A DNA stretch of 64,000 nt from Ignavibacteria bacterium (GCA_017303675.1 JAFLBX010000002.1:1021642-1085641); one strand, 5' to 3'. Shown: positions 22,014 through 52,600, counted from the first letter of the stretch. Program-made: numbers and translations. The notes: a model not told the origin generated them from the sequence alone.

Positions 22014-22132
22014 AATGTCAAATTTCAAAATCCAAATCTCAATGGTATGCTTTTAAAAAATAATTTGGCATTTGATCTTTGGCGTTTGACATTAAAAAAC
22101 CTTTATTAATTTAAAGCCATAATATAAAAGAC

Positions 22133-23644: not shown

Positions 23645-23645
23645 A

Positions 23646-24683: not shown

Positions 24684-24704
24684 GATCCGGGAAGGTATAA
24701 AAAA

Positions 24705-29377: not shown

Positions 29378-30640
29378 TTGGCTATAAATATAAAGAAATA
29401 TAGAGGTTTAATTTCCGGCAGCAAATATATTTTTCTGCTGAATGTTACTGATAAGGTTTTTTCATTTGTGATCATGCTGCTGCTTGCGAGGAATTTTCCG
29501 GCGGAAGTTTACGGGCAGATAGTTACACTGATAGCATTAAGTATGGTATTTATATCTATTTTCGATCTTGGGCTCCCGATATTCATACAGCGTGAAATAG
29601 CTGAATCACCCTTAAACGTCTCTGCTGTATTCAGCAGGGTTTTCACCCTGGGTAGTATATTAATTCTGATATACTATTCAGCAAGCCTGCTAACACTGAA
29701 GATCATCTACCCAGATATTCCTTACACATTATTTTCAGTAATTTCTGTTATGATGTATATTTCATTCCTTGTGACAATATCGAATAAAGCTTTAGCCGGT
29801 TTAAATGAATACAGGTCGCAATTCACTGCTTTTATTTTACCAAGAGCAGCAGTATTAATAATTTTTTTTGCGGGAATTTACTATTTTGAGCTAAGCGCTT
29901 CACTGTTGTTTACAATTATGCTTGGGGGTATAATTGTAAACCTGCTGCTTGCAGTTTTTTATCTTTACAGGAATAATGTAAGAATATCACTTTCATATTT
30001 TCAGTTAAATTCAGTTTTAAAAATAATTGCCGTTTCTCTTCCGCTTGGCTTAGCAGTTGTTTTCAATTTCCTTTATGATAAAATCGACCTGCTGCTGATC
30101 TCCGGGATAACAGATTATGATTCAGCGGCAGTTTACAGCATTGCTTATGGTTTATTTAAATCATCATCAATTGCTTTTTCATTTCTGCTAGTAAGCGGCT
30201 TTACCAAAATTGCAGAAATGAAAAGGGATCCGGGGCCGGTCAGAGCATTCTTTAAGGAGCATGCGAAGCTTATAGCCGTTATTTGCATAATATGTTCTGT
30301 TATACTTTTTATATTCCCCGAATATATTATCGGGCTGCTTTACAGCGGCAGGTTTACAGATTCAGCATCAGTATTAAGGATACTTTCTATTGCACTGATA
30401 GCAATGGGATTAAACAACCTGACAGGTGTTATTTTAAACGGCATGGGATATTTTAAAGCTGTAATGTATATTACTTTATACGCTTTAATAATGAATGCAT
30501 CGCTTAATATACTTTTTATTCCTGTTTACGGGATTAAAGCTGCGGCAGTAATATCAATCATTACGGAATATTTTATACTTGTTACGGAATGGGTTTTCCT
30601 GGTAAAAATTTTAAAAGCGCTTGAAGCAAAAAAGGCATGA
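29378..30640 (+). CDS. Polysaccharide flippase (Wzx/MATE-like)
   Basis: A 420-aa membrane protein with about 12 hydrophobic segments and the N-terminal pattern of the polysaccharide-export family (FLLNVTDKVFSFVIMLLLARN, then FGLP/DLGLPIFIQREIAE). It would flip lipid-linked oligosaccharides across the inner membrane. TTG start at 29378 (MAINIKKYRG). It is the first gene of a ten-gene chain of glycan and surface-protein genes on the plus strand, and is divergent from the cargo gene ending at 29213. Confidence 0.9.
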   Translation: MAINIKKYRGLISGSKYIFLLNVTDKVFSFVIMLLLARNFPAEVYGQIVTLIALSMVFISIFDLGLPIFIQREIAESPLNVSAVFSRVFTLGSILILIYYSASLLTLKIIYPDIPYTLFSVISVMMYISFLVTISNKALAGLNEYRSQFTAFILPRAAVLIIFFAGIYYFELSASLLFTIMLGGIIVNLLLAVFYLYRNNVRISLSYFQLNSVLKIIAVSLPLGLAVVFNFLYDKIDLLLISGITDYDSAAVYSIAYGLFKSSSIAFSFLLVSGFTKIAEMKRDPGPVRAFFKEHAKLIAVICIICSVILFIFPEYIIGLLYSGRFTDSASVLRILSIALIAMGLNNLTGVILNGMGYFKAVMYITLYALIMNASLNILFIPVYGIKAAAVISIITEYFILVTEWVFLVKILKALEAKKA

Positions 30641-30655
30641 GAACTTAAGCAATAA

Positions 30656-31321
30656 ATGGGCACATCAAACTGGCAGAATATATCATATAATATTGAGCTG
30701 ATAAGAAAGCTTGACCCGCAATCAATACTGGATGTGGGTGCCGGATTCGGCAGGTGGGGAATTTTATTCAGGGAATTTCTTGAGATCTGGGACGGAGCCA
30801 GGTATGGCGGCAATTGGCAGCGAAAAATAGATGCAGTTGAAATTTACCCCGGCTATATCAAAGATTACCACCACTACTTTTATAATAATATTTTTATTGA
30901 AGATGCAGCATCATTCATTGAATCAACCAGGAACAGGTATGACCTGATAAACTTTGGCGATGTTATAGAGCATTTGGATAAGCCTGCCGGCATAAAGATG
31001 CTTGAAGACGCTCTGACAAAGAGCCGGTATGTGCTGGTAAATGTTCCGATCGGAAAATTCTGGCCGCAGGAAGGCACACCTGATAATCCGTTTGAAGCTC
31101 ACCGCAGTATATGGTACAACAACGATTTTACAAAATATAAATACTATAAAATTAAAACATTTTATGACGCGGAATCAAGGGAATTCAGTGTTGTGCTGAT
31201 CTCAAACAGCAGGATAAAGTATACGAATAAATACGGCCGGTTCTTCAGAATTAAAAATTTCCTGAAACACAGGCTTGGCTTAAAGGGTCTGATAGAACGG
31301 TATGAGAAGAAAAGAAGATAA
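30656..31321 (+). CDS. SAM-dependent methyltransferase
   Basis: A 221-aa class I methyltransferase with motif I ILDVGAGFGRWG (about residues 24-35) and DLINFGDVIEHLDKP as the later conserved motif. It lies 15 bases after the flippase gene and overlaps the next gene by 20 bases, so it belongs to the glycan operon. It probably methylates a sugar or lipid carrier or a glycan end; the acceptor is unknown. Confidence 0.87.
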   Translation: MGTSNWQNISYNIELIRKLDPQSILDVGAGFGRWGILFREFLEIWDGARYGGNWQRKIDAVEIYPGYIKDYHHYFYNNIFIEDAASFIESTRNRYDLINFGDVIEHLDKPAGIKMLEDALTKSRYVLVNVPIGKFWPQEGTPDNPFEAHRSIWYNNDFTKYKYYKIKTFYDAESREFSVVLISNSRIKYTNKYGRFFRIKNFLKHRLGLKGLIERYEKKRR

Positions 31322-32417
31322 TGTGAAAATACTCTTTGCTGGCAGGTATTCAGAAGAGAAAATACTTTCTGGTCCTGAACGGACCTCAAAAGATATATTT
31401 GATGAATATGCATCAAATCATAGTGCAGTTTTTTTACAATATTTTTTTGACGGCAGGAAATTTTCATTGTTTAAAAAACTGTTCGGAAAACAGACCACTG
31501 AATATGGCAGAGGTAAAGTATTTACACTCGGGATTTTCAGAATAATTCCTTTTTTGGTATCATACAGGCCTGAAATTATACATTTATTAAATTATGAACG
31601 ATTTGCCGTTATTTTGTATTTATACAGGCTGGTATTTAAAACAACCGTAATATACAGCTCACACGGAATAATAAAATTTGAAAACACTGTAATAAAAAAG
31701 CTACGCGGAAGAAAAATATACAAGGATAATTTTTGCGAAAGGATTTTTATCAGGTACTCAGATAAAATAATATTTCCTTCGGAGGAAGCAAAAAATACTG
31801 CTGGTAAATATTATAAATTACCTGAGGATAAAACGGTTATCATTCCCAACATTGCCGGTGGATTGTTTTACGATATAGCTAAAATTAATTCCGAATCGCA
31901 GCCAATAAAGGCAGTTATACATTACAAGAACAGCCTGAACAAAAGCGGGTATGAGATGCTGCTGGGCACTATAAATCTGCTTAAAAGCAATATAGATATA
32001 TATTTATTGACAAATGAGTTAACAGGTTTTCAGAGAGGAATATTTCCCAAATTATATGTGCATGTAATGATGCCGCAGGATAAGCTGGCTGAATTTTATG
32101 CAGATAAAAATGTATTTTTATCTTTAAACAGCTATGAAACATTTTCAATTTCAACTGCAGAAGCAATGGCTTCAGGGTTAATCCCGATAATAACAAATGA
32201 AACAGGGATATCAGCATATATTAACAACGGCGTAAACGGCTTTAAGATAGCTTACGGTGATACTTCAATGCTTGGAGAAATATTAGACAGGATTTCTTCG
32301 ATGAATTCAGATGAAATAATATCGTTAACCCAAAAAGCAAAAGAAACAGCAGAAGCATTCAGGATAGATAAAATATTCAGCAGGTATTTAAAGCTATACA
32401 GGGAGTGTGTTAAATGA
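31302..32417 (+). CDS. Glycosyltransferase, GT4-like
   Basis: A 371-aa protein with the two-domain layout of GT-B enzymes. The C-terminal half contains FLSLNSYETFSISTAEAMASGLIPIITNETGISAYINNG, which matches the nucleotide-sugar site of GT4 enzymes (Glu in SxETF, conserved EAMASG). The listed ATG overlaps the previous gene by 20 bases; GTG at 31323 (VKILFAGRYSE) is an alternative that would give almost no overlap and is at least as likely. Donor and acceptor are unknown. Confidence 0.85.
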   Translation: MRRKEDNVKILFAGRYSEEKILSGPERTSKDIFDEYASNHSAVFLQYFFDGRKFSLFKKLFGKQTTEYGRGKVFTLGIFRIIPFLVSYRPEIIHLLNYERFAVILYLYRLVFKTTVIYSSHGIIKFENTVIKKLRGRKIYKDNFCERIFIRYSDKIIFPSEEAKNTAGKYYKLPEDKTVIIPNIAGGLFYDIAKINSESQPIKAVIHYKNSLNKSGYEMLLGTINLLKSNIDIYLLTNELTGFQRGIFPKLYVHVMMPQDKLAEFYADKNVFLSLNSYETFSISTAEAMASGLIPIITNETGISAYINNGVNGFKIAYGDTSMLGEILDRISSMNSDEIISLTQKAKETAEAFRIDKIFSRYLKLYRECVK

Positions 32418-33484
32418 ATATCCTGCTCTTAGCCAATGAGCTTAGGTATACATGCGGTGTAACAAACCATTTACTGCATTTATCACGCGGATTAACAGGC
32501 ACACGTAAAGTTAATTTATGGATCATCTGCGGCGGCGGCAATGGTGTAAACAGGTTCAGCGATATAAACGTAAATATAATTACAGATGAAAGATTCCTGC
32601 ATTTAACCAGGACATTTTCAGGGTTCATTTCATCTATAAACTTCCTGGTAAAATTTATCAGGCAGAATAAAATAGATGTAATCCATTCGCACTATCATTA
32701 CGGCGCAGCCATTGCCAAAAGGGCCTCCAGGCTGACGGGAATAACCACGATACAGACAAACCACGGCCTGCTTGCAGATACCGGCAGGCTTAAACATTTT
32801 AATGCGGATAGATACATTGCTATAAACGGACATATTAATGACCATCTGTTAAAAAATAAAATTGCAGCAGAAAGAAATATCACTTTTATCCGCTGCGGAA
32901 TACCATCTCCAGATAAGCTGCAGGTAAAAAATGAAGGAGATATTATCAGAGTACTTGCGGCTTCAAGGTTTACTTACGGCAAAGGACTTGATATATTTAT
33001 CAAGGCCGTCAGCCTGCTGCCGGAAGAAATACATAAAAATGCAGAATTTATAATTGCGGGCGAAGGCGAGCTTGAAGAAAAATTAAAAAAATTAAATGAA
33101 GCAGCAGGCGGAAGGATAAAGTTTCCGGGCAAAGTAACAGATATGTACAGTTACCTAAAAAATATTCATGTCCTGGTAAATCCAACCTGTTCTGAGGCCG
33201 AAGGTTTCCCGGCAATAATTACTGAAGCCGGAGCATCAAACACGCTGGTTATCAGCTCTGATTTTAACGGGCATGATGATGTATTGCAAAATGGAGTAAA
33301 CAGCCTGATCTACAAAAGCGATAGTCCCGAAGAATTATCAGAACTGCTGAAGAAGGTAATTACCGGCTATAAAGATTACCAGCCTGCAGCAGGTAATCTG
33401 TACAATAAAATTAAAACAGAGTTTTCAATAGATGAAATGATATCAAAGCATATATTACTTTATACTGAATGTTTAAAGAAATAA
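32414..33484 (+). CDS. Glycosyltransferase, GT4 family
   Basis: A 356-aa GT-B protein. The N-terminal acceptor half has HSHYHYGAAIAKRASRL; the C-terminal half has VLAASRFTYGKGLDIFIKAVSLL, FIIAGEGELE and SEAEGFPAIITEAGAS, the canonical GT4 donor site. It shares an ATGA overlap with the preceding gene, a sign of translational coupling. Cytoplasmic or membrane-associated enzyme adding one sugar of the glycan. Confidence 0.9.
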   Translation: MNILLLANELRYTCGVTNHLLHLSRGLTGTRKVNLWIICGGGNGVNRFSDINVNIITDERFLHLTRTFSGFISSINFLVKFIRQNKIDVIHSHYHYGAAIAKRASRLTGITTIQTNHGLLADTGRLKHFNADRYIAINGHINDHLLKNKIAAERNITFIRCGIPSPDKLQVKNEGDIIRVLAASRFTYGKGLDIFIKAVSLLPEEIHKNAEFIIAGEGELEEKLKKLNEAAGGRIKFPGKVTDMYSYLKNIHVLVNPTCSEAEGFPAIITEAGASNTLVISSDFNGHDDVLQNGVNSLIYKSDSPEELSELLKKVITGYKDYQPAAGNLYNKIKTEFSIDEMISKHILLYTECLKK

Positions 33485-34419
33485 GGGAAATATCGGTGCT
33501 TATGCCTGCTTATAATTGCGGCAAGTATATAAGGCAGTCAATAAACAGTATCCTCAGGCAGTCATTCAAAAATTTTGAATTCATAATTATAGATGACGGC
33601 TCGACTGATAATACTGAAGAAATTGTATCTAGAATAAGCGATAGCAGAATAGTCTACAAAAAAACAGAGCATAAGGGCACTTCAGCAGCTATGAATTACG
33701 GCATAAGCTTATGCAGGAATGAATGGATAGCAAGAATTGATGCTGATGACCTTAATACTGCTGTAAGGCTTGAAAAAGAAATAGCATTCTTAAACGAAAA
33801 CCCGGAAACCGATATACTTTCATCATGGTCAGTTTATTTTAAAGATCCAGCAAAGATACTTTTTCTGCTGAAAGAGCCAGTTGATCATAATGATATACAT
33901 ACATATCTGAATCTTCATAACCCGGTAAACCAATCAGCAATGATTTTTAAAAAAAGTATCTTTGCAGAACACAGGTTCGATGAAACGCTTGACTGCAACG
34001 AAGATTACGAACTGATGTACAGGCTGAGGGATAAGGTGCGTTTCGCGCTGGTTCCGGAATTCCTTGTTTACACAAGGCTGCGGAGTGATTCCCGCACATT
34101 AACAGGAAACCGTGAAAACATTCTGAACAGGATGCATACGGATGCATTCCGTAAAATGGTGGATTCAAAATCAAAGGGAGACCATTTTTACTGGGCTTCG
34201 GTGGCTGCATGGCTTAATTATTTTTACGGGTCAAGATATGAAGCCCGGGGATATTTTAAAAACTCGTTTTCGCTTAAGAATACGGCAGCATATCTTACTA
34301 CATTTTTACCTGATAAATATTTCTTTAAGTTTATAAATTCACATTTAAAGTACAGGATAAAAGGCATTTTTACCATCAAGTCAGAATATCAAAAAGAGCT
34401 GAATTCATTACTTAAATAA
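33469..34419 (+). CDS. Glycosyltransferase, GT2 family
   Basis: A 316-aa GT-A enzyme with the GT2 signature VLMPAYNCGKYIRQSINSIL near the start, IIDDGSTDNTEE for UDP-sugar binding, and the DxD motif as RIDADDLNT (about residue 90). It overlaps the preceding gene by 16 bases. It probably adds a hexose or amino sugar to the lipid-linked intermediate; the specific sugar cannot be read from sequence. Confidence 0.92.
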   Translation: MFKEIREISVLMPAYNCGKYIRQSINSILRQSFKNFEFIIIDDGSTDNTEEIVSRISDSRIVYKKTEHKGTSAAMNYGISLCRNEWIARIDADDLNTAVRLEKEIAFLNENPETDILSSWSVYFKDPAKILFLLKEPVDHNDIHTYLNLHNPVNQSAMIFKKSIFAEHRFDETLDCNEDYELMYRLRDKVRFALVPEFLVYTRLRSDSRTLTGNRENILNRMHTDAFRKMVDSKSKGDHFYWASVAAWLNYFYGSRYEARGYFKNSFSLKNTAAYLTTFLPDKYFFKFINSHLKYRIKGIFTIKSEYQKELNSLLK

Positions 34420-34420
34420 C

Positions 34421-36061
34421 TTGAAAGAATCCGGAAAATTCATTTTTTATTCATTAGGCTTATACGCTGTTTATACAGCAATGCTTTATGTATTCGGATT
34501 TTTCAGCATCGGGCTCTTATCAGATGATTACATGAACATCTACGATGCCATTAATTCAACTTTTTACCAGAAGCTGACAGGTACCCTCCCCTTCACCAAC
34601 GCGTTTCACATCAGGCCGTTTTATTATTTATCACTTGAAAAAAGCGTAAGCTTAAGCACACTTTTCGGTTTTGCGCCTGATAATTTTATATGGTTCAGGA
34701 TACAGAACCTGCTACTGCTGCTTTTCATAGCATTTACCGCAGGCTTAACATTATTTTACCTTACAAAAAGAGCATCAGTTTCGCTGGTATGTTCAGCTGC
34801 AATACTCTTATATCCAAATAACATAAACAATATTTGCTGGATGGCTGCAAGAGTTGATCTTATCTGCTGTTTCTTTTATGTAATTTCAATTTTGCTTTTT
34901 TTGCTTTACAGTGATTCAGGCAAACGTTCATTTTTTATACTTTCTGTAATTACATTTATACTTGCACTGTTAACCAAGGAGCTTGCCATTACCCTGCCAT
35001 TAGTCCTGCTGTTAACTGAGTATTTCAGGAAAGGAATTACAGGGCTTAAAAAAACAATGCCATTGGTTATAACATCATTTGGTCTACTTGTTGTTTATTT
35101 TATTTTCAGGATCGCTGTACTGGGCAATAATGTAACTGAAATAGCAACTTTATACCAGTCTTTCCCTTTGAGCAATGCACCGGGAGTTTACGCCCGCGCA
35201 TTAATTGCGCTTTCTATTCCGCTTGATTTTATCACAATAAACTTCCAGCTTAGAAATGATAATAAGCTAATAATCCTGTACCTGCTTATACTTTACGGTT
35301 CAGGATTTTATTTGATATGGAAATCAGTAAGAACTGATATATATAGAATAGTTGGACAGCTTACTGCTTTCTTTTTCGTACTTATAACTCCCTATGCAAT
35401 TGTTGGCTATATAAGGCCGCAGATGATATTGCTGCCATTCGTAATACTAACTGTCTTCGTGCTTTATATATACAGCGAACAGAAAAGATTAAGCATAAAG
35501 CTGAACCGCAATATATTGAGGCTCTCTTTTTCAGCAGCAGTAATATTCTGGTGTATATGGTCAGCCGGTACTGTTAGTGACTGGGTAACATCATATGAAA
35601 AAGCAAAAATAAATGTGGGAAAGCTCATAACTACTCCAATAGAGCCGGGGAAGAAGATAGTATTGATAGGTAACCCGGGAAGATTCAAACAGACATTTAT
35701 GTTCGATAAGATGACAGGCGCATACGGATTCTGGAAGGAAAAGAAATTTGTTATAAAAGATACAATAAATGATGTGATACAGACAGCGGCATTCCAGGAA
35801 AGCTCCATAGGCGCTAAACTGGAATGCAGGGAAATTTCACCCGCTGAATTCGAAATAAAAGCAATTGCCCCGAAACAGTTCTTTTACATTGAAGGCTATA
35901 ACAGCGAAAGGATACGTACAGGCTTTAAGAACAGCGATATATCCGTTGAATTCACGGAATTCAATACTGTTGATAAGCCAATAAAGCTAACTCTTAAAAT
36001 CCTTTCGGATAAGATATCTTGTTACCTGGGAGAAGAGCTTGGTTTCAGAAAGATATATTGA
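34421..36061 (+). CDS. GT-C-like membrane glycosyltransferase
   Basis: A 546-aa polytopic membrane protein with about ten hydrophobic segments, the acidic pair SDDY in the first extracytoplasmic loop and TKELAITLPLVLLLTEYFRK, features of GT-C (PMT/ArnT-like) transferases that use lipid-phosphate sugars. The C-terminal 120 residues are hydrophilic. TTG start at 34421, 1 base after the GT2 gene stop codon. A role in adding a sugar to the glycan or to a protein outside the inner membrane is inferred from fold and operon. It could also be an O-antigen ligase or polymerase-like protein. Confidence 0.72.
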   Translation: MKESGKFIFYSLGLYAVYTAMLYVFGFFSIGLLSDDYMNIYDAINSTFYQKLTGTLPFTNAFHIRPFYYLSLEKSVSLSTLFGFAPDNFIWFRIQNLLLLLFIAFTAGLTLFYLTKRASVSLVCSAAILLYPNNINNICWMAARVDLICCFFYVISILLFLLYSDSGKRSFFILSVITFILALLTKELAITLPLVLLLTEYFRKGITGLKKTMPLVITSFGLLVVYFIFRIAVLGNNVTEIATLYQSFPLSNAPGVYARALIALSIPLDFITINFQLRNDNKLIILYLLILYGSGFYLIWKSVRTDIYRIVGQLTAFFFVLITPYAIVGYIRPQMILLPFVILTVFVLYIYSEQKRLSIKLNRNILRLSFSAAVIFWCIWSAGTVSDWVTSYEKAKINVGKLITTPIEPGKKIVLIGNPGRFKQTFMFDKMTGAYGFWKEKKFVIKDTINDVIQTAAFQESSIGAKLECREISPAEFEIKAIAPKQFFYIEGYNSERIRTGFKNSDISVEFTEFNTVDKPIKLTLKILSDKISCYLGEELGFRKIY

Positions 36062-36066
36062 TAAAA

Positions 36067-37143
36067 ATGAAGTTCAACATACTGCATATTACTCCTGATT
36101 TCAACTACGCCTGCGGCAGGTCTTATTACGTTTACCTGCTTGCCAAATACCTTGGCAAAAAGCACAAAGTAACGGTAATTACAAATGGCGGTGACTCGCT
36201 TGAAAGGCTTGAAGAAAAAGGCATCACCTATAAAATTCTAAAAGGGCTTAAGTCAAAAAATCCGTTAACAATTGCAGGCAATATTTCTGCAATAAAGGAT
36301 ATCATTGCAGAAAATGATATTGATATAGTCCACACACATCACAGGCTTGCAGAAGTGCTGGCGCTGCAGGCATTAAAGAGAATTAAAAAGAAAAAAACCG
36401 CATCTGTATTTACTTCATTAAGCATTGTTAAGCGGAAATATAATATTGAATACCGCTCAGATAAAATTATTGCTGTAAGTAATTCCGTTAAGGACATGCT
36501 GCTTGATAAGTTCAGCATTGACCGGGATAAAATAAGCGTTATAAATAATTTTACAGATACCGATGAGATACATGAGCTTGAGATTATTTCACCAAGAATG
36601 CGCGACCACGGGAAATTTTTTATAATTCTTGCTATCGGCAGATTTCATAATGACAAGGATTTTGAAACACTGCTCAAAGCGCTGAACATTCTGAAAAAGG
36701 AGCGCATAGGCCTAATACTTGTTGGCGAAGGTAATAATGATATTGACTACAGAAGGTATATTGCGAAGAATAATCTTAATGTTGAAATTATAGTCCCCCA
36801 GAAAAACCTGCTGCAGTATTTCTTAGTAGCAGATCTTTGCGTACTGCCTTCAACCCGTGACCCATTCCCGAATTTTATGCTTCAGGCGGGTATGCACAGG
36901 GTACCTTTTATCGGCGCGAATGTTGATGGCATTGGTGAGTTGATAAAAGACAGGGTAAACGGCCTCCTTTTTAAAGCAGGCGATGAAAAAGAGCTGGCAG
37001 AAAAGATACTTCTTTTCAGGGGTAATAAAAAGCTTGCTGAAAACTGCGCAGTAAACCTGCATGAAGATGTTCTTAACAATTATACACAGGAATTCATTGT
37101 ACCTCGTATTGATCATCTCTACAGGTCGTTAATAAAGCGTTAA
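36067..37143 (+). CDS. Glycosyltransferase, GT4 family
   Basis: A 358-aa GT-B protein starting at ATG 36067 (MKFNILHITPDFNYACG), five bases after the GT-C gene stop codon. An in-frame ATG at 36019 would overlap the preceding gene and does not improve the fit. Conserved donor-side motifs: FFIILAIGRFHNDKDFETLLKAL (first residues only quoted here), ILVGEGN and STRDPFPNFMLQAGMHRVP. It belongs to the same polycistronic chain. Donor unknown. Confidence 0.88.
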   Translation: MKFNILHITPDFNYACGRSYYVYLLAKYLGKKHKVTVITNGGDSLERLEEKGITYKILKGLKSKNPLTIAGNISAIKDIIAENDIDIVHTHHRLAEVLALQALKRIKKKKTASVFTSLSIVKRKYNIEYRSDKIIAVSNSVKDMLLDKFSIDRDKISVINNFTDTDEIHELEIISPRMRDHGKFFIILAIGRFHNDKDFETLLKALNILKKERIGLILVGEGNNDIDYRRYIAKNNLNVEIIVPQKNLLQYFLVADLCVLPSTRDPFPNFMLQAGMHRVPFIGANVDGIGELIKDRVNGLLFKAGDEKELAEKILLFRGNKKLAENCAVNLHEDVLNNYTQEFIVPRIDHLYRSLIKR

Positions 37144-37146
37144 ACA

Positions 37147-37884
37147 ATGATGAATGAACCTGTTGAAATAAACGGTATCAAAATAAATATAACTGACTAC
37201 CGTGGGTTAAATTCACTCATCAGCAAAGCAATAAGCACAGGTGAAAGCTTAAAAATCGGTTACGCCAACGCTAATACAATAAATTTATCTTTCAGAAACC
37301 ACAGGCTAAAGGAATATCTCGGCTCATTTGATCTCATTCACCCTGACGGTGCAGGTATTAAAGCAGCAATAAACTTTGTGTATCCGGGTGCTTATAAGAT
37401 AACAAGATTTACCGGCTCAGACTTTTACCCTGTATTTATTAATAACTCCATAAAAAATAATTATAAGCTGTTTTTTTTCGGACACACTGACGATGTGCTT
37501 TCAAAAATACCCTTAACCCACAAAGAACTGAAAATATGCGGTATGCAGGAGGGCTATGACTATGATAATAATAAGCTTATTACAGATATTAATGCATCAA
37601 AGCCTGATATATTGATTATCGGGCTCGGCACCCCGCTACAGGAAAAATGGGTTTTCGAAAACAGCAGAAAGATCAATGTAAAAGTAATAATGTGTACAGG
37701 TGAAGGTATCAGGGTATTTGCCGGAATAAAACAAAGGGGTCCCGTTTTATTAAGAAAACTTGGGCTTGAATGGCTTTACAGATTCAGCACTTCGCCATTA
37801 AAGTACTTTAACAGGTATATCATAGGAAACCCTTTATTTTTATATAGAATTATTATATTAAAAATGCGTAAATTGAGGGCATGA
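37147..37884 (+). CDS. WecG/TagA/CpsF-family glycosyltransferase
   Basis: A 245-aa GT26 enzyme identified by NANTINLS, FDLIHPDGAGI, GLGTPLQEKWV and LGLEWLYRFS. Members transfer N-acetylmannosamine or its uronic acid to a lipid-linked GlcNAc, often as the second sugar of an envelope glycan. Three bases after the preceding gene and overlapping the C25 peptidase gene by ATGA. It is the last sugar-transfer gene of the chain. Membrane-associated on the cytoplasmic side; the exact sugar is unknown. Confidence 0.93.
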   Translation: MMNEPVEINGIKINITDYRGLNSLISKAISTGESLKIGYANANTINLSFRNHRLKEYLGSFDLIHPDGAGIKAAINFVYPGAYKITRFTGSDFYPVFINNSIKNNYKLFFFGHTDDVLSKIPLTHKELKICGMQEGYDYDNNKLITDINASKPDILIIGLGTPLQEKWVFENSRKINVKVIMCTGEGIRVFAGIKQRGPVLLRKLGLEWLYRFSTSPLKYFNRYIIGNPLFLYRIIILKMRKLRA

Positions 37885-40800
37885 ATGCCCTGAAATTTAG
37901 CGTACTTGCAGCATTATTTCTGTTGTTCAGCTCAGAGGCTATTAGCCAGAATTATGACTGGATAACTCCAAATAAAACATATCTGAAGATGTATGTTGCT
38001 TCAGACGGTATTTACCGCGTAACCCGCAATGAATTTACGCAGGCAGGCATTAACACTTCTATTATTGACCCCAGAACAGTAAAGCTGTACTATAAAGGCT
38101 CCGAAATACCTGTTTATTTTGAAGGTGAGCAGGATGGCTCTTTTGATGCCAATGATTACATAGATTTTTACGGAAGAAAAAACAGCGGCGGTTTAACAAC
38201 TACTTACCTTGCCAGCTTCGGACCAACAACATTTGATTACCAAACTGATGAGTATTATGATCTTTATTCAGATACAAGCGTTTACTGGATAGGCTGGGAC
38301 GGCACACTCGGTTCAAGATATACACTTTCAGCTTATACAGTAACAAATGAATACCCGCAGAACTTTTCATTTGAAAAGATACATTTTGAAGTTGATTCTG
38401 TTTACAGCCTTGGTTTGACTGTTAACGCCAACTCGGATTTCAGGTTCTTTAACACAGAAAAAATTTCAGGAGAAGGCTGGTACTGGAAGAACCTTACGGC
38501 GCAGAACGGGTTTACAATCACAAGGAATTTTTCACTGCCGCTATTGAACTCACTGCCGGCGGGCTGTACGTTCAGGGTATTTGCGTTTCCAAATTCACGC
38601 GATACATCATTTAACGAGCATAAGCTTGTATTAACGCTGAATTCCACCCCGATCACCACGCTTGCGCGCAATGACTACACAAGGTTCGATACAACCATTG
38701 GCTTCCAAAGCACCTTGTTTAACAGCTCGCAGAATACAGTCACAGTTACTTACACACCTACTTTCACAATGCCTGAAGTAACCCCAAGCCTGTATTTTGA
38801 TCTTATCGAGCTAACTTATCCGAAGCAGTTCAGGTTTCAGAACGGTCATTGCAGGATAACACTTAATTCCACCGATACATCAAGCGCGCTTTTCAGGGTA
38901 CTTGGCTTTAATTCATCTTCACCATTTTCAATATATGATCTTAAAAACAATATAAAGATAACCAATATCAGTTCAGATTCAGACACATTATTTTTTACCG
39001 GTAAGCAGAACGGTGACTTTGAAATATATAATCAATCAATAACAACAAGACCCTTCAGGTCACAGCAGCGGCAGGTTCAGAACCTGGTATCACCTTCCAA
39101 CGCTGCAGATTATCTAGTAATCTATAACAGGCTGTTTGAATCACAGGCAGAGCAGCTCCGCTCACACAGACAGGTAAGGGATAACTTCCGTTCATTCAAA
39201 GCCCCGGTAGATGATATCATAGATATTTTCAATTACGGGATGGAAAGTCCGGCAGCTATACGCAGATTTATCAAGCACGTATATGATACCTGGCAGGCGC
39301 CAAAAGTAAGTTATGTAATGCTGCTTGGCAGGGGTTCACTTGACCCAAAGAATAACAGGCTTTCCCCAAATTACTTCAGGAATTTTATTCCCGTTTACGG
39401 CAACCCTCCGAGTGACGGGTATTTTGTAAATTTCAATCTGAACGGCTTTACATATTTCCACGAAGCGGCAATTGGCAGGCTGCCTGTTTACACTCCACAG
39501 GAAGCGCAGGATGCTGTGAATAAGATAATAGCATATGATAATGAACCGCCGCAGAGATGGTGGAAAAATTTCAATATGATAACCGGGGGTCCGAACCGCA
39601 TTGAGCAGATACAGTACCAGACACAATCAAATGAGTTTGTAAATAATTTTATATTACCCAACCCCGTTGCGGGTATTACGGAAAAAATTTACAGGAATGA
39701 TTCCGCAGGGTATATTACATTTAATTATGCTGATTCCATAAAAAACGCAATAAACCGCGGCGGGCTGTTCGTGAATTTTATCGGTCACGCAGCCAGCCAG
39801 GATTGGGAGCTAGGGCTTGAAGATCCTTTCACTTTAAATAACGGGAACAGGCTGCCGTTTGTACTGAGCATGACATGCTTTACAGGTAAAAACGCAGAAG
39901 CGAATTTGCGCGGGTTCGGTGAAAAATTCCTTTATGCGCCTAACCGCGGCGCTCTTGGATTTCTGGGTTCAACGGGCTGGTCATTTTCAGGCGCCGGCAA
40001 TGAAATCAATAAGTTCATATTTACAGGATTTGCACAGGATACATTAAGAAGACTTGGCACGCTTTTAAAATATGCCAATAACAGGATGGTTCAGGATTCA
40101 GGCAACTTCCAGGTGCGCAATATGATAAACAGCTATAACCTGCTGGGCGACCCTGCTTCGAAGCTGTTATTGCCTGAGGGTCCGGAATTTGTTATCGGGC
40201 AGACTGATTACAGGATCAGTAATCAATACCCGCTAGTGGGTGAGGTTGTTACATGGAAAATTTTTCCAAAAAACTATGGACTCTTCGCTATTAACTGCCC
40301 TGTGAAATTTGAAATACTTAAGAACGGGAATGCATTCAGAACTAAAGATACAATTATAAATTCATTCAAAATTTTCGATACACTCTCTTACGTATTCAGC
40401 ATTGATACGATCGGTAATTACTCACTGCGGGCAACACTTGACCCGAACAACCTGTATCCTGACGAGGACCCATCAAACAATGTGCTGGTGATCCCGCTTC
40501 CGCTTAGGAATATTTCATACACACCGCTTAAGCCAATAAATAATTCAGTGATATTCCAGGATTCAGTTGAGTTTGTAGGATTAAATCCGCAGGTTGATCT
40601 AAGAACAAACAGCGTAAAAGTAATTCTACAGGTTGATACAACGGCAGCATTCGGGAATCCTTTGCTGAATTATGCTAATACCAATATCAGCGGTGTTGCC
40701 AATAAAGTTAAATACAGAATACCAATAGCTGATTCAAATATTGTGTATTACTGGAGAACTAATGCTGTAATAAACGGTGATTCAGCCGGCTGGTCTGAGA

Positions 40801-42755
40801 CCAATAAGTTTGTTTATAATCCAGCAATAAGCCTTGCCGGAAGTAAAATGATAAACAGTGATTCAATTGTAACACTTTACCCAAGATTGTTTGGGCAGTT
40901 CCCGGCAAATTCATATAACGGCTTATATTATACAGGTTCCGGGTTCAAGCTGAACAATTCACAGGGACAGCTTCAGGTTAAATCTCACGGTAACAACGGC
41001 AATGAAGCTTCATACTTCAGCATGCCGGGATACCAGCTTTTCATAGACGGAGGAAGTAATCCCGGACTTAATATTATTAAAGCAAGAAGGCTGACAGGAA
41101 AATTAATTGAGTTCCGTAATTTTTATATGAATTCGGCTACGTCTTCTGATTCAGTTCTGAATTTCTTAAACACATTTGATACCACGCATTATTTATTGGT
41201 TGCGGTTTCATCTTATTCTCCCAATTCCGATAGTTTACGTCTTAACTGCAGGCTTAAATTCAAACAATTCGGCAGCACAATGGTTGATTCAGTTACAACA
41301 TTTGCGGCGTTTTATACATGGGCGTTTATAGGGGTTCTCAACTCTCCCCCTATAGCCGGCGCTGAGGGATTTGCGAGACCGCATCCTTCATGTCCGAACA
41401 ATTACTGCCCTTCTTTTGCCAATTTAAGCTCTACTTTTTTAAACACATTGGGCACTATTGATTTCGCGATGGGTCCGGCCCACCGCTGGAAATATTTTTC
41501 ATGGAACAGGACACTTCCTGCCGGGTCATTTGTGAATTTTGATGTAACAGGAATAAATGCAGCGGGTACGCAGGTTCCGCTATTTACCAACCTGAACACA
41601 AGCACATTCACGCCCATAGATACGGTTAACAGCTTTATTTATCCTGAGCTAAGGCTTAAAGCCAATATAGAAATTGATACATTAAGCGGAATAGAGTCAC
41701 CGGAGTTCAGGTCTTTATACTTTAAGTATACACCGCCTGCAGAAATTATACCGGATAATTATTCTTTTATACGAAGCGACTCAATTGTTGATGAAGGCGC
41801 GCAGGTAAATATCAGTGTTAATAACTATAATATTGGCTTTGTGCCGGCAGGCACGGTTGTGTATAAATGGACAGCCAATGCTTATAACGGGCTTATTAAC
41901 TTAAGGACAGATACAGTATTCACCCCCCTTATGCCGGACAGTGTTTACCTTTCACAGGTAACATTTAATACACAGGGATTAAAAAATCCGCAATCAACAA
42001 TTGATACACTGGATATCAACTTCGAAGTATCTATGCTGAACGATCAGAACGATTATTACCCGTTCAATAATTTCGCATTCACAGAAATTGTTATAATGGG
42101 AGATTCAACCGGTCCGGCAATTGATGTGACATATAACGGCAACAAGATCCTTGACGGGGATCTTATCCCCGCAAAACCTGAAATACTTTTCAGGTTTTAC
42201 GATGAGAGCAAGCTTGAATACTCAATCACTGATACAGCCGGCATATTTATCAGGCTTGACGGCAGAAGGATAAATTATTTTACTTCCGGCGTGCAGAACC
42301 CGGAAATTACTTTCACCGCTGTTAATGACGGCAGCCTGAAGACAAGCGTACTTTATAAGCCTGAGCTACCAGCAGGCACTCACCTGCTGCAGTATTACGG
42401 CGCAGATAAAGACGGGAATAAAGATACTCTCATAAACAATGTTTACATAAGCTATGATTTCGCGGTCAGGAACCTGTTCAACTATCCGAACCCGATGCAG
42501 GGTGATACTTATTTTACTTTTGACCTGTTTGCGGCAGAAGCTCCCCAGAAATGCCTGATAAAGATATACACAGTAGCCGGCAGGCTGGTAAGGGATGTTG
42601 AGGGCCAGGCCAGGGTAGGATTTAACCATATATACTGGGACGGCAAAGATGGCGATGGAGAAACAATGGCAAACGGAATTTACCTGTATAAACTTATACT
42701 GGAAGGCAGCGGCAAAACCGAAACATCGATCCAGAAATTAGCTATATTAAAATAA
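37881..42755 (+). CDS. C25 (gingipain/PorU-like) cysteine peptidase with T9SS domain
   Basis: This 1624-aa protein has a signal peptide (to about residue 22). A large N-terminal beta region is followed by a C25 peptidase domain at about residues 390-770, with catalytic His636 in FIGHAA and Cys666 in MTCFTG, and then Ig-like domains. The C-terminal T9SS-type domain (NYPNPMQGDT, ending KLAILK) starts near residue 1530. PorU is the C25-family sortase of T9SS, which removes sorting domains and links cargo to A-LPS. This protein may be that sortase or a secreted gingipain-like protease. ATGA overlap with the glycosyltransferase gene supports a link to glycan attachment. Both catalytic residues are present. 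Confidence 0.88.
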   Translation: MNALKFSVLAALFLLFSSEAISQNYDWITPNKTYLKMYVASDGIYRVTRNEFTQAGINTSIIDPRTVKLYYKGSEIPVYFEGEQDGSFDANDYIDFYGRKNSGGLTTTYLASFGPTTFDYQTDEYYDLYSDTSVYWIGWDGTLGSRYTLSAYTVTNEYPQNFSFEKIHFEVDSVYSLGLTVNANSDFRFFNTEKISGEGWYWKNLTAQNGFTITRNFSLPLLNSLPAGCTFRVFAFPNSRDTSFNEHKLVLTLNSTPITTLARNDYTRFDTTIGFQSTLFNSSQNTVTVTYTPTFTMPEVTPSLYFDLIELTYPKQFRFQNGHCRITLNSTDTSSALFRVLGFNSSSPFSIYDLKNNIKITNISSDSDTLFFTGKQNGDFEIYNQSITTRPFRSQQRQVQNLVSPSNAADYLVIYNRLFESQAEQLRSHRQVRDNFRSFKAPVDDIIDIFNYGMESPAAIRRFIKHVYDTWQAPKVSYVMLLGRGSLDPKNNRLSPNYFRNFIPVYGNPPSDGYFVNFNLNGFTYFHEAAIGRLPVYTPQEAQDAVNKIIAYDNEPPQRWWKNFNMITGGPNRIEQIQYQTQSNEFVNNFILPNPVAGITEKIYRNDSAGYITFNYADSIKNAINRGGLFVNFIGHAASQDWELGLEDPFTLNNGNRLPFVLSMTCFTGKNAEANLRGFGEKFLYAPNRGALGFLGSTGWSFSGAGNEINKFIFTGFAQDTLRRLGTLLKYANNRMVQDSGNFQVRNMINSYNLLGDPASKLLLPEGPEFVIGQTDYRISNQYPLVGEVVTWKIFPKNYGLFAINCPVKFEILKNGNAFRTKDTIINSFKIFDTLSYVFSIDTIGNYSLRATLDPNNLYPDEDPSNNVLVIPLPLRNISYTPLKPINNSVIFQDSVEFVGLNPQVDLRTNSVKVILQVDTTAAFGNPLLNYANTNISGVANKVKYRIPIADSNIVYYWRTNAVINGDSAGWSETNKFVYNPAISLAGSKMINSDSIVTLYPRLFGQFPANSYNGLYYTGSGFKLNNSQGQLQVKSHGNNGNEASYFSMPGYQLFIDGGSNPGLNIIKARRLTGKLIEFRNFYMNSATSSDSVLNFLNTFDTTHYLLVAVSSYSPNSDSLRLNCRLKFKQFGSTMVDSVTTFAAFYTWAFIGVLNSPPIAGAEGFARPHPSCPNNYCPSFANLSSTFLNTLGTIDFAMGPAHRWKYFSWNRTLPAGSFVNFDVTGINAAGTQVPLFTNLNTSTFTPIDTVNSFIYPELRLKANIEIDTLSGIESPEFRSLYFKYTPPAEIIPDNYSFIRSDSIVDEGAQVNISVNNYNIGFVPAGTVVYKWTANAYNGLINLRTDTVFTPLMPDSVYLSQVTFNTQGLKNPQSTIDTLDINFEVSMLNDQNDYYPFNNFAFTEIVIMGDSTGPAIDVTYNGNKILDGDLIPAKPEILFRFYDESKLEYSITDTAGIFIRLDGRRINYFTSGVQNPEITFTAVNDGSLKTSVLYKPELPAGTHLLQYYGADKDGNKDTLINNVYISYDFAVRNLFNYPNPMQGDTYFTFDLFAAEAPQKCLIKIYTVAGRLVRDVEGQARVGFNHIYWDGKDGDGETMANGIYLYKLILEGSGKTETSIQKLAILK

Positions 42756-45443
42756 TTGAAAAATTTATTTATAATATTCCAGCTTTTGCTGGTAACAGCA
42801 TGCGCCCAGGCGCAGTGGTTCACACAATCAAGCGGTACCTCGCAGCCGTTCACAAATATTTTCTTTGTTGATGCAAATACGGGAACGGCTATCGGGCTTT
42901 CAGGTACAATACGCAGAACAACTAACGGCGGAGTGAACTGGATAACGCAGACAGTGCCTGCTGATAATCTTTACGGTATATATTTCCTTAACAGCAGCAC
43001 CGGTTATATAAGCGGTGACGCGGTTTTTTACAAAACAACTAATGGCGGCAATACCTGGGTTGACCCCGGGGGTCCGGTCAGGCTGCACCGCGGGATTTTT
43101 TTTACGGATGCAAATACAGGCTACACCTGTTCAGGCGTTGGCGCGCTGGATAAAACCACAAACGGCGGCGCAGCGTGGACTGTATTAAGCTCAGGCACAA
43201 CGCAAAATCTGAATAACATTAAATTCGCGGATGCATCAACCGGATATGTTTCAGGTTATAACGGTACGATGCTTAAAACTACAGATGGCGGCTCGAGCTG
43301 GTTATTGCTTTCAACAGGAATAACAGACCACCTGTTTGCGCTGGCAGTTATAAATGCTGATGTTGTATATGCCGGGGGCGAAAGCGGAAAGCTTATAAAA
43401 ACAACGAACGGAGGCACGACTTGGAGCAATTTAACAAGCGGAATTACAGGCAGAATAACCAATTTCAGCTTTCTGAATGCGAATACCGGCACAGGAAGCG
43501 CAAACGGTAATTTTATTATTCGCACAACTAACGGCGGCAGCACATGGGTTTCACAGGTAAGCCCGCTTTCGGGGCAGGACTGGAACGGAGTATCATTCGC
43601 TAATATCAATACAGGTTTTATTGCAGGCTCCGCGGGTAATATCATAAAAACATCAAACGGCGGATTTGAGATACCGACAATGCCGGTATTAACCGCGCCG
43701 GTTAACGGCGCTGTGAATGTAAGCGTTACTGCCCTGCTTGACTGGGATTCCATAACAACAGCCAAAACTTACCAGGTACAGATAGATGAAGACTCATCGT
43801 ACTCATCTCCGATACTTGATTCTGCATTGATCGATAACAGCAATATGAGCGTACCGCCTAACAGGCTGCTGAACAATACACGCTATTACTGGCGTGTAAG
43901 GGGTGAAAGCGCAGGAGGAATCGGACCGTGGTCTTACAGCTTTAATTTCAGAACAATTGTAGCAATACCAAATGCCCCTGGATTGTTATTACCGGTTGAC
44001 GGAGCTTCGAATGTATCACTGACGCCGCTGTTTGACTGGGACAGCACTTCACCTGCAGCTTCATATACATTACAGGCTTCGCTGGATACATCGTTCTCAA
44101 ACCCGGCAGTATTTATTTCAGGCATAACGCAATCATTTTTAAATTTAGTAAGCCCGCAGCTACAGAATAACTTCAGGTATTACTGGCGTGTAAATGCCAC
44201 AAATATTGCCGGCACTGGTGAATGGTCTGAAGTGCATGATTTTACGACAGTGCTTGGAATGCCTGCTGCACCGGGATTACTTCTGCCGGTAAATTTTGCA
44301 ACAGGCGTAAACCTCACTCCCCTGCTGGACTGGGTTGAGGATATTTCAGCAACTTCTTACCAGGTGCAGGTTTCACAGGATTCAACCTTTGCAGGAGTAT
44401 TGTGGGATACCAGCGGATTTAATATTTCACAGGTAACAGTAAGAAGCGGCTTGCTTACAAATGTACAGACATATTTCTGGCGGGTTAGAACAACCAATCC
44501 GATCGGAACGGGTCCATGGGCACAGCCCTTCAGATTTACAACATTACTTATACCTCCTGTGGCGCCTCAGCTTGTTGACCCGCCCGACGGTGCAATAGAA
44601 ATTTCTACGACACCGACATTGAACTGGGACAGCGTACAGTATGCTGCATCATTCAGGATCCAGCTTTCTACCGATTCAACTTTTGCAACTACACTGATTA
44701 ATTCTTCGGGACTTGTATTTTCTCAATACAATGTACCGGGCGGAATACTGAATAATAATACACGGTATTTCTGGCGTGTAAATGCATCTAATAATGCAGG
44801 TACGGGTCCGTATTCCCAGGTATTTGATTTCACAACAGTAATTTCACCGCCGGTAGCAGCGCCTACGCTGCTTGCGCCGCCAAATGGCGCGGTTAACCAG
44901 CCACTGAATTTAACGCTTGACTGGAACGATGTATTCGGTACAACCGGGTACAAAGTACTGCTTTCAACAGATTCGCTTTTTAATACTACACTGCTTGATA
45001 CAACTATAACTGCATCACAGATGGTTGTTCGCTCAGGATTGCTTTCGGGCAGCTCAGTATATCACTGGCGTGTGAGAGGTTTTAATGTCGGCGGTTTCGG
45101 TCCGTGGAGCGTTACATGGAAGTTTACAACACAAATAATAGGTATTGAACCTATCAGCGGGATTGTGCCGTCAGCATTCAGGCTGTATGATAACTACCCG
45201 AATCCGTTTAACCCGGTAACAACAATTAATTTTGATATTCCCACAAGCACGGAAAATGCGAACACTAAGCTTATAATTTACGATTTGACAGGCAGGGTTA
45301 TATCAGAGCTGATAGATGAAGAGCTAAGACCCGGAAAATACAGTGTGAAATGGGATGCTTCAGCTTACGCAAGCGGAGTTTATTTATTCCGTTTGGAATC
45401 AGGCAGATTCAGTGATATTAAAAAAATGGTTGTAGTGAAGTAA
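42756..45443 (+). CDS. T9SS cargo with YCF48 propeller and five FN3-like repeats
   Basis: An 895-aa protein whose TTG start at 42756 directly follows the preceding stop codon. A signal peptide (about residues 1-19) is followed by YCF48-like blades (TTNGGVNW, TTNGGNTW, TTDGGSSW) to about residue 305, then five fibronectin-like repeats of about 100 residues, each beginning with AP-x-LLxPxxGA-type sequence followed by (L/F)DWDS. A T9SS sorting domain closes it (DNYPNPFNPVT, ending KKMVVVK). The N-terminal VTAC could be read as a lipobox, but AQA-QW is a good signal-peptidase I site. It is likely a long surface adhesin or binding protein co-expressed with the C25 enzyme. Confidence 0.87.
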   Translation: MKNLFIIFQLLLVTACAQAQWFTQSSGTSQPFTNIFFVDANTGTAIGLSGTIRRTTNGGVNWITQTVPADNLYGIYFLNSSTGYISGDAVFYKTTNGGNTWVDPGGPVRLHRGIFFTDANTGYTCSGVGALDKTTNGGAAWTVLSSGTTQNLNNIKFADASTGYVSGYNGTMLKTTDGGSSWLLLSTGITDHLFALAVINADVVYAGGESGKLIKTTNGGTTWSNLTSGITGRITNFSFLNANTGTGSANGNFIIRTTNGGSTWVSQVSPLSGQDWNGVSFANINTGFIAGSAGNIIKTSNGGFEIPTMPVLTAPVNGAVNVSVTALLDWDSITTAKTYQVQIDEDSSYSSPILDSALIDNSNMSVPPNRLLNNTRYYWRVRGESAGGIGPWSYSFNFRTIVAIPNAPGLLLPVDGASNVSLTPLFDWDSTSPAASYTLQASLDTSFSNPAVFISGITQSFLNLVSPQLQNNFRYYWRVNATNIAGTGEWSEVHDFTTVLGMPAAPGLLLPVNFATGVNLTPLLDWVEDISATSYQVQVSQDSTFAGVLWDTSGFNISQVTVRSGLLTNVQTYFWRVRTTNPIGTGPWAQPFRFTTLLIPPVAPQLVDPPDGAIEISTTPTLNWDSVQYAASFRIQLSTDSTFATTLINSSGLVFSQYNVPGGILNNNTRYFWRVNASNNAGTGPYSQVFDFTTVISPPVAAPTLLAPPNGAVNQPLNLTLDWNDVFGTTGYKVLLSTDSLFNTTLLDTTITASQMVVRSGLLSGSSVYHWRVRGFNVGGFGPWSVTWKFTTQIIGIEPISGIVPSAFRLYDNYPNPFNPVTTINFDIPTSTENANTKLIIYDLTGRVISELIDEELRPGKYSVKWDASAYASGVYLFRLESGRFSDIKKMVVVK

Positions 45444-49613: not shown

Positions 49614-52600
49614 ATGAAAAAGCTATTCTCTCTGTTGGCAGTTATCGCTTTAACTGCTATTTTTACTCAAACTTCTTTTTCACAGCTTAGCGGAACTTAC
49701 ACTATTCCCGGAAGCTATGCAACAATTTCTGCAGCTGTAACTGCACTGAATACTCAAGGAGTATCAGGACCTGTTGTATTTAATGTTGCTGCCGGGCATA
49801 CTGAAACCTCAGCAAACATTACATTTACAAATACAACTCCAAATTCAACTAACACTGTAACATTCCAGAAATCAGGAGCCGGAGCTAATCCGTTAATTAC
49901 GGCAGCTGCAGGGACTTCAACTACACTTGATGGAATAGTAAAGTTTGGCGGAACTGATTATGTAACTTTTGACGGTATTGATGTTACAGACCCGACAACA
50001 AATATTACAACTACGACTAAAATGGAGTGGGGCTATGCTATTCTTAAAGCATCAGCAACAGATGCTTCACAGAATATTATAATAAGAAACTGTGTAATCA
50101 ATATTAATACTCATACAACAATATACACAAACACAAAAGGTATTTACACAGGCAACCATCTGACAACTTCTACTACATCATTGACAATTACAGCAGCTTC
50201 AGGTACAATCTCAAACTGTCAATTTTACAGCAATACAATTAATACAGCATATGTGGGTATTGAATTAAACGGATATAATGCAGCTTCACCATATACTCTT
50301 TATGACCAAAATAATGATATAGGAGTAGCAGGAGCAAATACAATTAATAGTTTTGGAGGCAGTTCATCTACAGGTTATGGTGTTTACGCTATTTACCAGA
50401 ATGATCTGGAAGTAGAAAACAACACAATTATTGGAGGTTCACACGGAACATTTCTGCATACATCAACATTATATGGAATATTTTTATCAACGGGTGTTAA
50501 CTCAAATGCAGATATTCATAATAATACTGTAACACTAACCAGCAATTCAACAACAAGTTCAACCTACGGGATAAACAATGCAATGGGCGGGACCGGAACG
50601 ACAAATACGATAAACATAACCAATAATACTGTTCAGAATTGTGTTTGGAATACTGTTACAACCGGATCAATTTATTTCATTTACCAGTCTTCATCAGCAT
50701 ATAATGTCAATATAACCGGCAACGCAGTTGATAACTTCACTGCGGGAAACGGAACGACAACATCCACCGGCGGAATCTACGGTATATATACATTTGGCGG
50801 CAATTCAAATGCCGGAAGCCAGTGGCTACTAGGGAACAATACAGTAACGAATTTAAGCAGGTCACAATCTGTTGCAGGTACTGGTATTATGTACTGTATA
50901 TATAATTCATCTTCCGGCAGAACATTTAAAGTATATAACAATACAATAAATAATAACACAAATAACTCAACTTCGAGTGTGCTAGCCGGATTGTATTTAA
51001 CAGCTACATCTGCAGACAGCGTGGCAATATACAGCAACACTATACACACGTTAACAAAAGGCACAGGAACAACTTCAGGTGCTTTATATGGTATATACGC
51101 GAGCCAAAGTTCACCTGTAGCAAACACATATAACAATACAGTTTATGGTTTAAGCACTACTCCTACTACATCAACAAATGCAACATATGGCTATTACAAT
51201 AACGGATCAGGTACAACAACTGAAAATCTGGTAAATAATTCATTTTACAATTTCTCGAGCAATGGAACTGGTTTAGTAATGGGTGCATTATGCCAGACAG
51301 GCGGCAGCCCCTCGAAAAATATTTCCAATAATTTAATATATAATATTACTGCCGGTACCGGTGCTGCAGGCGGTCAGGCAGCGGGTTTACAGGTCGGTTA
51401 CGTGGGTACTGCAAGTATATTTAATAATAAGATATATAACCTCATAAGTTACAATGCAACAGGTTTATCTCCGGCAACATTCGGTATGGCAACTGTAACA
51501 TCAGGAACAACATTTAACATATATAACAATTATATTCATGAATTAAAAGCGCCAAATGCTTCGGTAGCACTTCCCGGTACATCAATAATTGGATATATGC
51601 ACAATTTCGGTGCTGCAAATTTCTTTTATAATACAATATATCTGGATGCAACAGGAACAGGGGCTGTTTTCAGTTCCGCCGCAGTATATTCAAACACAAC
51701 ATATAATCTTGATATGAGAAATAACATTCTCATAAATAAATCAACGCCAAACGGCACAGGAATATCTGTTGTTCATCACAGAAGTTCCACAACACTTACC
51801 AGTTACCAGACAACATCAGACAGGAATAATTTGTACGCTGGTACACCCGGGGCAAACAATCTGATATACTACGATGGTACAAACAGCGACCAGACACTTT
51901 CAGCATACAAAACAAGAGTTTCACCTAAAGACGCAAATTCGGTTACAGAGAACACAACATTTGTAAATACAAGCTCATCACCGTATGACCTGCATATTGC
52001 TGCATGTACTTCTACTCAGGTAGAAAGCAACGGCGCAATTGTTTCATCACCAATTTCTATTACAACAGATTTTGACGGTAATGCCAGGTATAATAATGCA
52101 GGTTATCCGCAGTGTTCAACATTCACAGCAACTGCACCGGATATGGGAGCTGATGAATTTGGAGGTGTTGGTGTTGACGCGGTAGGACCGACAATAAGCT
52201 ATACTGCGTTAGGCAACGGCACAGCAGGTTCAAACAGGAGTTTCCCGAATATTACGATCACAGATGCCAGCGGTATAAATAATTCAGCAGGTACAAAGCC
52301 AAGATGTTATTACAAAAAGTCAACAGATGCAAACGCATATAATGGCAATACATTTTTTGATGACGGGTGGAAATGGGTAGAAGCCAATGGATCTTCGTCA
52401 CCATATGACTTTACTATAGATTACACTATATTAAACGGCGGTTCAGTTACTTCAGGTGATGTGATCCAATATTTTGTAACAGCACAGGATCTTGCTTCAA
52501 CGCCGAATATCGGGATAAATTCAGGAACTTATGCAGGTTCGCCAACATCAGTTGCAGATTACGCTAATATGTTCCCCTTAGGCGGCACAATAAACCAGTA

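Follow-up and report, generated by a model that had tools for sequence, protein, structure and literature searches.

The window, a stretch of 64,000 nucleotides from an Ignavibacteria bacterium (GCA_017303675.1, JAFLBX010000002.1:1021642-1085641), carries an unbroken series of genes from 29378 to 42756 that leads from a flippase through glycosyltransferases and a WecG-type transferase to a C25 peptidase gene and a T9SS cargo gene (Table 1). The nine junctions, each between -20 and +15 bases, agree in their open reading frames, phases and overlaps with the description given in the initial annotation, including the ATGA by which the WecG/TagA-type gene overlaps the C25 gene, and the His636/Cys666 pair that it had reported as intact is present. 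Translation of the cargo gene starts at a TTG immediately 3′ of the C25 stop codon. WecG is encoded by a single copy in the 3.65 Mb genome, and the 546-aa polytopic protein had no family match in Pfam/NCBIfam profile searches.

The operon contains neither an initiating transferase nor a recognisable ligase; elsewhere the genome has PF04932 candidates and one WbaP-like gene. Supply of WecG by a WecA/TagO enzyme was considered and rejected, the sole PF00953 gene being an open frame of 369 aa that is probably MraY by its length. The Wbp/Vim genes (seryl-sugar linker, SAGA locus) are absent from the window operon; a WbpB homologue lies elsewhere in the window genome, and none was present among the genomes listed for family f2. 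Synthesis of a linking sugar of the Porphyromonas gingivalis type by the locus was rejected on these grounds.

Three further loci of the window were recorded: a T9SS cargo of 2256 aa with parallel-beta-helix-like repeats and a Lys/Asn-rich low-complexity insert (49614-56384), a BMP-type nucleoside ABC importer (lipoprotein, ATPase and two permeases; 20994-25580) near the glycan/T9SS region, and a lone 249-aa P-loop protein (GPNGSGKST) resembling zeta-toxin-type kinases (18285-19034).

Table 1. Genes, domains and junctions of the glycan-PorU2 operon (window coordinates)
Feature	Position	Strand	Evidence or spacing
Wzx-type flippase, 420 aa, opens the glycan run	29378..30640	+	Pfam Polysacc_synt 6e-12; position kept in relatives
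Methyltransferase, 221 aa	30656..31321	+	Pfam Methyltransf_23
GT4 glycosyltransferase a	31302..32417	+	Pfam Glycos_transf_1
GT4 glycosyltransferase b	32414..33484	+	Pfam Glycos_transf_1 7e-27
GT2 glycosyltransferase	33469..34419	+	Pfam Glycos_transf_2 1e-32
Polytopic membrane protein, 546 aa, GT-C-like or polymerase candidate	34421..36061	+	Many hydrophobic segments; position kept in order
GT4 glycosyltransferase c	36067..37143	+	Pfam Glyco_transf_4 1e-23; longer ORF begins with TTG at 36019
WecG/TagA/CpsF-family glycosyltransferase	37147..37884	+	PF03808 9e-40; 136.6 bits vs cut-off 27.4
PorU2, 1624 aa: signal peptide, C25, ILEI/FAM3 domain, PorU-type CTD	37881..42755	+	NF052324 383 bits; PorU model 352 bits; tree; folds
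Peptidase C25 catalytic domain, residues 411-762	39111..40166	+	PF01364 2e-69; conservation
His636 codon (within C25 domain)	39786-39788	+	
Cys666 codon (within C25 domain)	39876-39878	+	
ILEI/FAM3/POMGnT1-stem domain, residues 1062-1152, candidate glycan-binding module	41064..41336	+	PF15711; AlphaFold model
PorU-type CTD, W-to-G spacing 5 residues longer	42468..42752	+	100.4 bits with PorU1-CTD HMM vs 41.4 with type A HMM
T9SS cargo: YCF48-like/BNR repeats, FN3-like repeats, type A CTD (Por_Secre_tail)	42756..45443	+	Pfam/NCBIfam matches
Junction 1	30640/30656		+15
Junction 2	31321/31302		-20
Junction 3	32417/32414		-4
Junction 4	33484/33469		-16
Junction 5	34419/34421		+1
Junction 6	36061/36067		+5, from the ATG at 36067, not the upstream TTG
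Junction 7	37143/37147		+3
Junction 8	37884/37881		-4, ATGA
Junction 9	42755/42756		0

Assignment of the C25 protein to PorU2

Three C25 genes are encoded by the genome. The first (L005; porU-porV locus at C1:1274527-1277877), followed by porV and then by a gene for an M6-like protein, is the canonical PorU, scoring 917 bits with the PorU model NF033707 against a cut-off of 420, and a canonical PorU above this cut-off was found in all 44 genomes of the order that were searched. The second (L006) is a gingipain-like C25 protein of 1005 aa, and the third is the window protein, whose operon holds no porV gene. Because a separate canonical PorU is present in the genome, the proposal that the window gene is itself the porU had to be given up. 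The window protein reached 352 bits with NF033707, under that 420-bit curated cut-off, and its best NCBIfam model was NF052324 ('putative T9SS sortase PorU2') at 383 bits, under a curated cut-off of 450 bits that was passed by none of the 119 genomes of the class set. An SprA-family frame of 2207 aa is encoded in the same genome, in addition to PorV and PorU.

To place the protein among its relatives, a maximum likelihood tree of 83 C25 domains was used, which is unrooted, takes its gingipain-like proteins from this order and leaves out the P. gingivalis references. Four groups, each with full support, were recovered: PorU2 of the order, the PorV2-linked PorU2, PorU, and the gingipain-like proteins. 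A split supported at 100/98 separated both groups of PorU2 from PorU and the gingipain-like proteins in this unrooted tree. The window protein fell on the same side as the high-scoring NF052324 members and apart from PorU, again with no root implied. By its sequence it is thus assigned to PorU2, a clade apart from PorU and from the gingipain-like proteins. C25 phylogeny had been named in the initial annotation as a check on its sortase reading, and in the tree the protein stood apart from the secreted, gingipain-like proteases that these genomes encode; a gingipain-type protease was rejected on this separation and on a C-terminal domain (CTD) that is not type A.

The catalytic dyad and the CTD were compared more widely. 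His636 aligned with His in 197 and Cys666 with Cys in all 198 of the distinct C25 domains collected. By the criterion of PMC11285876, the CTD of the window protein belongs to the PorU/PorZ type with the extra hairpin; this hairpin is common to the PorU and PorZ CTDs of P. gingivalis, both of which stay uncleaved (PMC11285876). The spacing from W to G is 13 in the window PorU2, as in PorU, and 8 in nearly all measurable cargo CTDs. PorU-like CTDs were found in 149 of 159 PorU2 (some counted twice) and in none of the 54 cargo controls.

Linkage of PorU2 to WecG and glycan genes

The surroundings of PorU2 were surveyed in 119 genomes, comprising the window genome and relatives from its class, with PorU2 counted at 300 bits or more. 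PorU2 was found in 63 genomes, 60 of which also encode WecG, compared with 9 of the 56 without PorU2 (Fisher p 3e-20, a value that ignores shared ancestry); outside the window's order the figures were 21/23 and 7/52. In 54 of these 63 genomes WecG was no more than 12 kb from PorU2, and in 49 it lay within 1.5 kb upstream, whereas a WecG gene within 12 kb of the canonical PorU was found in 0 of 42. At least seven families (f1, f2, f4, f10, f12, f13 and f17) show the link, as does f21. Records assigned to Melioribacter and Ignavibacterium are among those that encode PorU2. In 78 loci read, some of them counted twice, WecG directly adjoins PorU2, on the same strand in 73 and with a 4-base overlap in 23. 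The median number of glycan-gene matches within 5 kb upstream was 3 at PorU2 loci versus 0 at canonical PorU loci, a count that leans toward PorU2 because the HMMs were built from PorU2 neighbourhoods. The full order of flippase, WecG and PorU2 is kept in the window's family; more widely in the order it is retained with some insertions and losses, so that the gene order on which the initial annotation had staked its proposal proved strongly conserved in relatives. Coupling of PorU2 to glycan genes is not a matter of local chance, because WecG is single-copy in this genome, adjoins PorU2 class-wide and shares with it a recurring 4-base overlap.

These data bear on the simplest alternative, that PorU2 is nothing more than a secreted protease or an adhesin cargo, with a gene that stands by chance at the end of an O-antigen or exopolysaccharide cluster. 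Such a reading could appeal to the membership of gingipains in the C25 family and to the gingipain-like C25 gene elsewhere in this genome; however, the tree splits PorU2 from the gingipain-like proteins, the CTD is PorU-type and the linkage recurs from family to family while the PorU control is empty, and we regard it as highly improbable.

The coupling has its bounds. Some members of the class (f3) have PorU2 with no WecG nearby, and the grouping of the WecG genes was not clean, so the notion that those beside PorU2 form a single co-inherited clade was rejected. In several other families of Bacteroidota PorU2 is paired with PorV2 and has no glycan genes nearby; PorU2 directly follows PorV2 (NF052325) at six such loci (L106, L113, L116, L117, L118 and L121), and this pair is otherwise undescribed within the open-access literature searched. 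PorU2 therefore needs no linked glycan locus, and the link is a trait of the lineage and not a defining one. A linked PorV2 was sought for the window and rejected: every genome has a PorV2-like gene, but below the cut-off, and it does not adjoin the window PorU2. The canonical PorU of this genome is itself flanked, as read from the sequence, by a GT9-like gene upstream and a GT2-like gene beyond porV and the M6-like gene; single glycosyltransferase neighbours are therefore not distinctive, and the multi-gene cluster is.

Downstream of PorU2 the picture is less uniform. The initial annotation had joined glycan genes, C25 enzyme and cargo in one chain, which describes the window well, but this cargo gene follows PorU2 only in the window's own family, and the idea that the cargo belongs to the conserved unit was accordingly rejected. 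In Ignavibacteriaceae and Melioribacteraceae the region shortly after PorU2 encodes a small protein with a type A CTD, and in the same two families a conserved protein of about 450 aa with no Pfam match lies just 3′ of PorU2 (L199:15459-16805 and equivalents). These neighbours, together with the fixed cargo of the window's family, could be taken to mean that PorU2 acts on the glycan side, processing or displaying one or a few proteins for polysaccharide export, length control or surface assembly. We consider this rather improbable: the downstream neighbours vary by family while PorU2 and WecG are constant, and many type A cargos are encoded per genome. At one Melioribacteraceae locus (L207:14662-16144) a WbpB-like dehydrogenase and a WbpD-like hexapeptide acetyltransferase directly follow PorU2; enzymes of the WbpB/WbpD type make diacetamido uronic sugars.

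PorU2 also occurs as tandem copies preceded by four consecutive GT2 genes (L174, L178, L179 and L185); in some genomes the contig that bears them also has a PorU2 locus of the WecG type. The contigs behind L178/L190 and L176/L179 each carry one PorU2 after a WecG cluster and a tandem pair after a GT2 run, and different PorU2 copies thus stand behind different glycan clusters in at least two genomes. Distinct clusters for each copy are the strongest hint of a pairing between sortase and glycan as opposed to one shared glycan. In one tandem copy (L189, a 1644-aa stop-to-stop frame) the catalytic His is replaced by Lys, and this copy is possibly an inactive paralogue.

Predicted fold and the ILEI/FAM3 domain

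An AlphaFold model of PorU2 residues 1030-1300, with a mean pLDDT of 89, gave as its best match the stem domain of POMGnT1 (E 1.4e-7, TM 0.74 by target; best PDB matches 5ggj, 5ggn and 5ggl), the fold of which spans residues from about 1030 to 1180. The stem domain of POMGnT1 binds GlcNAc (PMC9802357), and the ILEI domain of PorU2, having this sugar-binding, lectin-like fold, is a candidate glycan-binding module. It was found in 18 of 20 PorU2 from the order, the class and a neighbouring family and in 3 of 8 PorU2 from others; it was found in none of the 8 PorU examined. PorU2 may bind glycan, as a domain of predicted sugar-binding fold would allow. In the window copy the fold is retained, but the sequence deviates from the FRDSWAxIGxKG motif conserved in relatives of the class, which makes glycan binding in this genome less certain.

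The model of residues 24-900 had P. gingivalis PorU as its best structural match (E 1.3e-34, 1003 columns), and gingipain structures matched its catalytic part only. This anatomy is shared by another possible enzyme, a C25 peptidase retained at the surface that binds the glycan of its locus through ILEI and trims CTDs or matures surface proteins with no attachment. A lectin domain joined to a peptidase would explain the linkage to glycan genes as well, and PorU itself both cleaves and transpeptidates, two activities that sequence cannot separate. Two considerations make a peptidase of this kind unlikely in our judgement, though it is the likeliest of the alternatives: over its full length the protein is matched best by the PorU sortase, whereas the gingipains match in the catalytic part only, and the canonical PorU already provides cleavage in every genome of the order searched, so that a second copy linked to glycan genes would be explained most naturally by the choice of acceptor.

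Proposed role of PorU2 and its bearing on T9SS anchoring

We propose that PorU2 is a second T9SS sortase that is encoded with the glycan made by its own locus and joins cargo to that glycan, a reading to which we give a probability of roughly 0.55. The upstream GT4, GT2, membrane and WecG-type enzymes would build a lipid-linked oligosaccharide that is flipped by Wzx, with the starting and ligating steps performed by enzymes encoded elsewhere. PorU2 would leave the cell through the T9SS, keep its uncleaved PorU-type CTD and hold the glycan through its own POMGnT1-stem-like domain, in the role of PorZ; Cys666 and His636 would then cleave the CTD from part of the T9SS cargo, and the new C-terminus would be joined to the locus glycan. 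This transpeptidation, that is, the transfer of protein onto the locus glycan, is proposed by analogy with PorU, and we infer that a subset of the cargo would be served in this way. PorU2 would work beside the canonical PorU and use a different acceptor glycan. As WecG is the most constant neighbour of PorU2, it is our guess that WecG adds the linking sugar. Of the three results by which the initial annotation would have its dedicated sortase-glycan pair refuted, one was obtained, a separate canonical PorU, and two were not, since the C25 domain does not group with the gingipain-like proteases and the gene order is kept. The pair is thus supported for a second, PorU2-type sortase, and paralogues with different clusters in one genome strengthen it.

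The closest known counterpart is the attachment complex of P. gingivalis (PMC8545088, PMC13086638), in which cargo is cleaved of its CTD by PorU and attached by the same enzyme, at the C-terminus so formed, to A-LPS that PorZ delivers (PMC8545088), with a serine-bearing sugar as the link (PMC13086638). PorU2 resembles it in its C25 Cys/His pair, in a CTD of the uncleaved type with the extra hairpin, in its occurrence in a T9SS genome and in the full-length structural match. It differs in sitting in a glycan operon, in sharing its genome with a canonical porU, in adding the lectin-like ILEI domain where P. gingivalis relies on a separate PorZ, and, for the window protein, in having no Propeptide_C25 match. 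None of the A-LPS-specific genes listed in PMC13086638 and PMC8545088 is named as WecG-type, and the seryl-sugar (Wbp/Vim) genes are absent from the window operon.

Two other comparisons are instructive. The 'putative' PorU2/PorV2 families NF052324 and NF052325 share the side of the C25 tree with the window protein and include its best, sub-threshold NCBIfam model, but their high-scoring members adjoin PorV2 and lack glycan genes, whereas the form found in class Ignavibacteria has glycan genes and usually ILEI. The PEP-CTERM/EpsH system (PMC1569441) likewise couples a putative transpeptidase for C-terminally tagged proteins to exopolysaccharide genes; EpsH, however, is an unrelated membrane enzyme acting on an unrelated sorting signal, and the enzyme here is a T9SS C25 protein. 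The POMGnT1 stem and FAM3 (ILEI) proteins are alike in fold, but they are eukaryotic glycan-binding or signalling domains, while the PorU2 version is a predicted one. No account of 'PorU2' was found in the open-access literature, to which the search was confined, and titles and abstracts there yielded no description of C25/PorU with a glycosyltransferase cluster.

Anchoring of T9SS cargo to glycan is known in detail for a few oral pathogens only, in which the genes for sortase and anchor are scattered. In the present case the linkage of a sortase-like enzyme to glycan genes is a physical one that extends across a class of environmental bacteria, and the enzyme carries a candidate glycan-binding domain, which turns the questions of which glycan a sortase uses and how it is recognised into directly testable ones. 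Tentatively, and with rather less confidence than would make it our expectation, we can imagine a general T9SS design in which a housekeeping PorU is joined by one or more PorU2, each with its own glycan cluster and a built-in lectin domain replacing PorZ, so that different sets of cargo would be directed to different glycans. PorU2, so far a database name only within the literature searched, is likely a second surface-attachment system.
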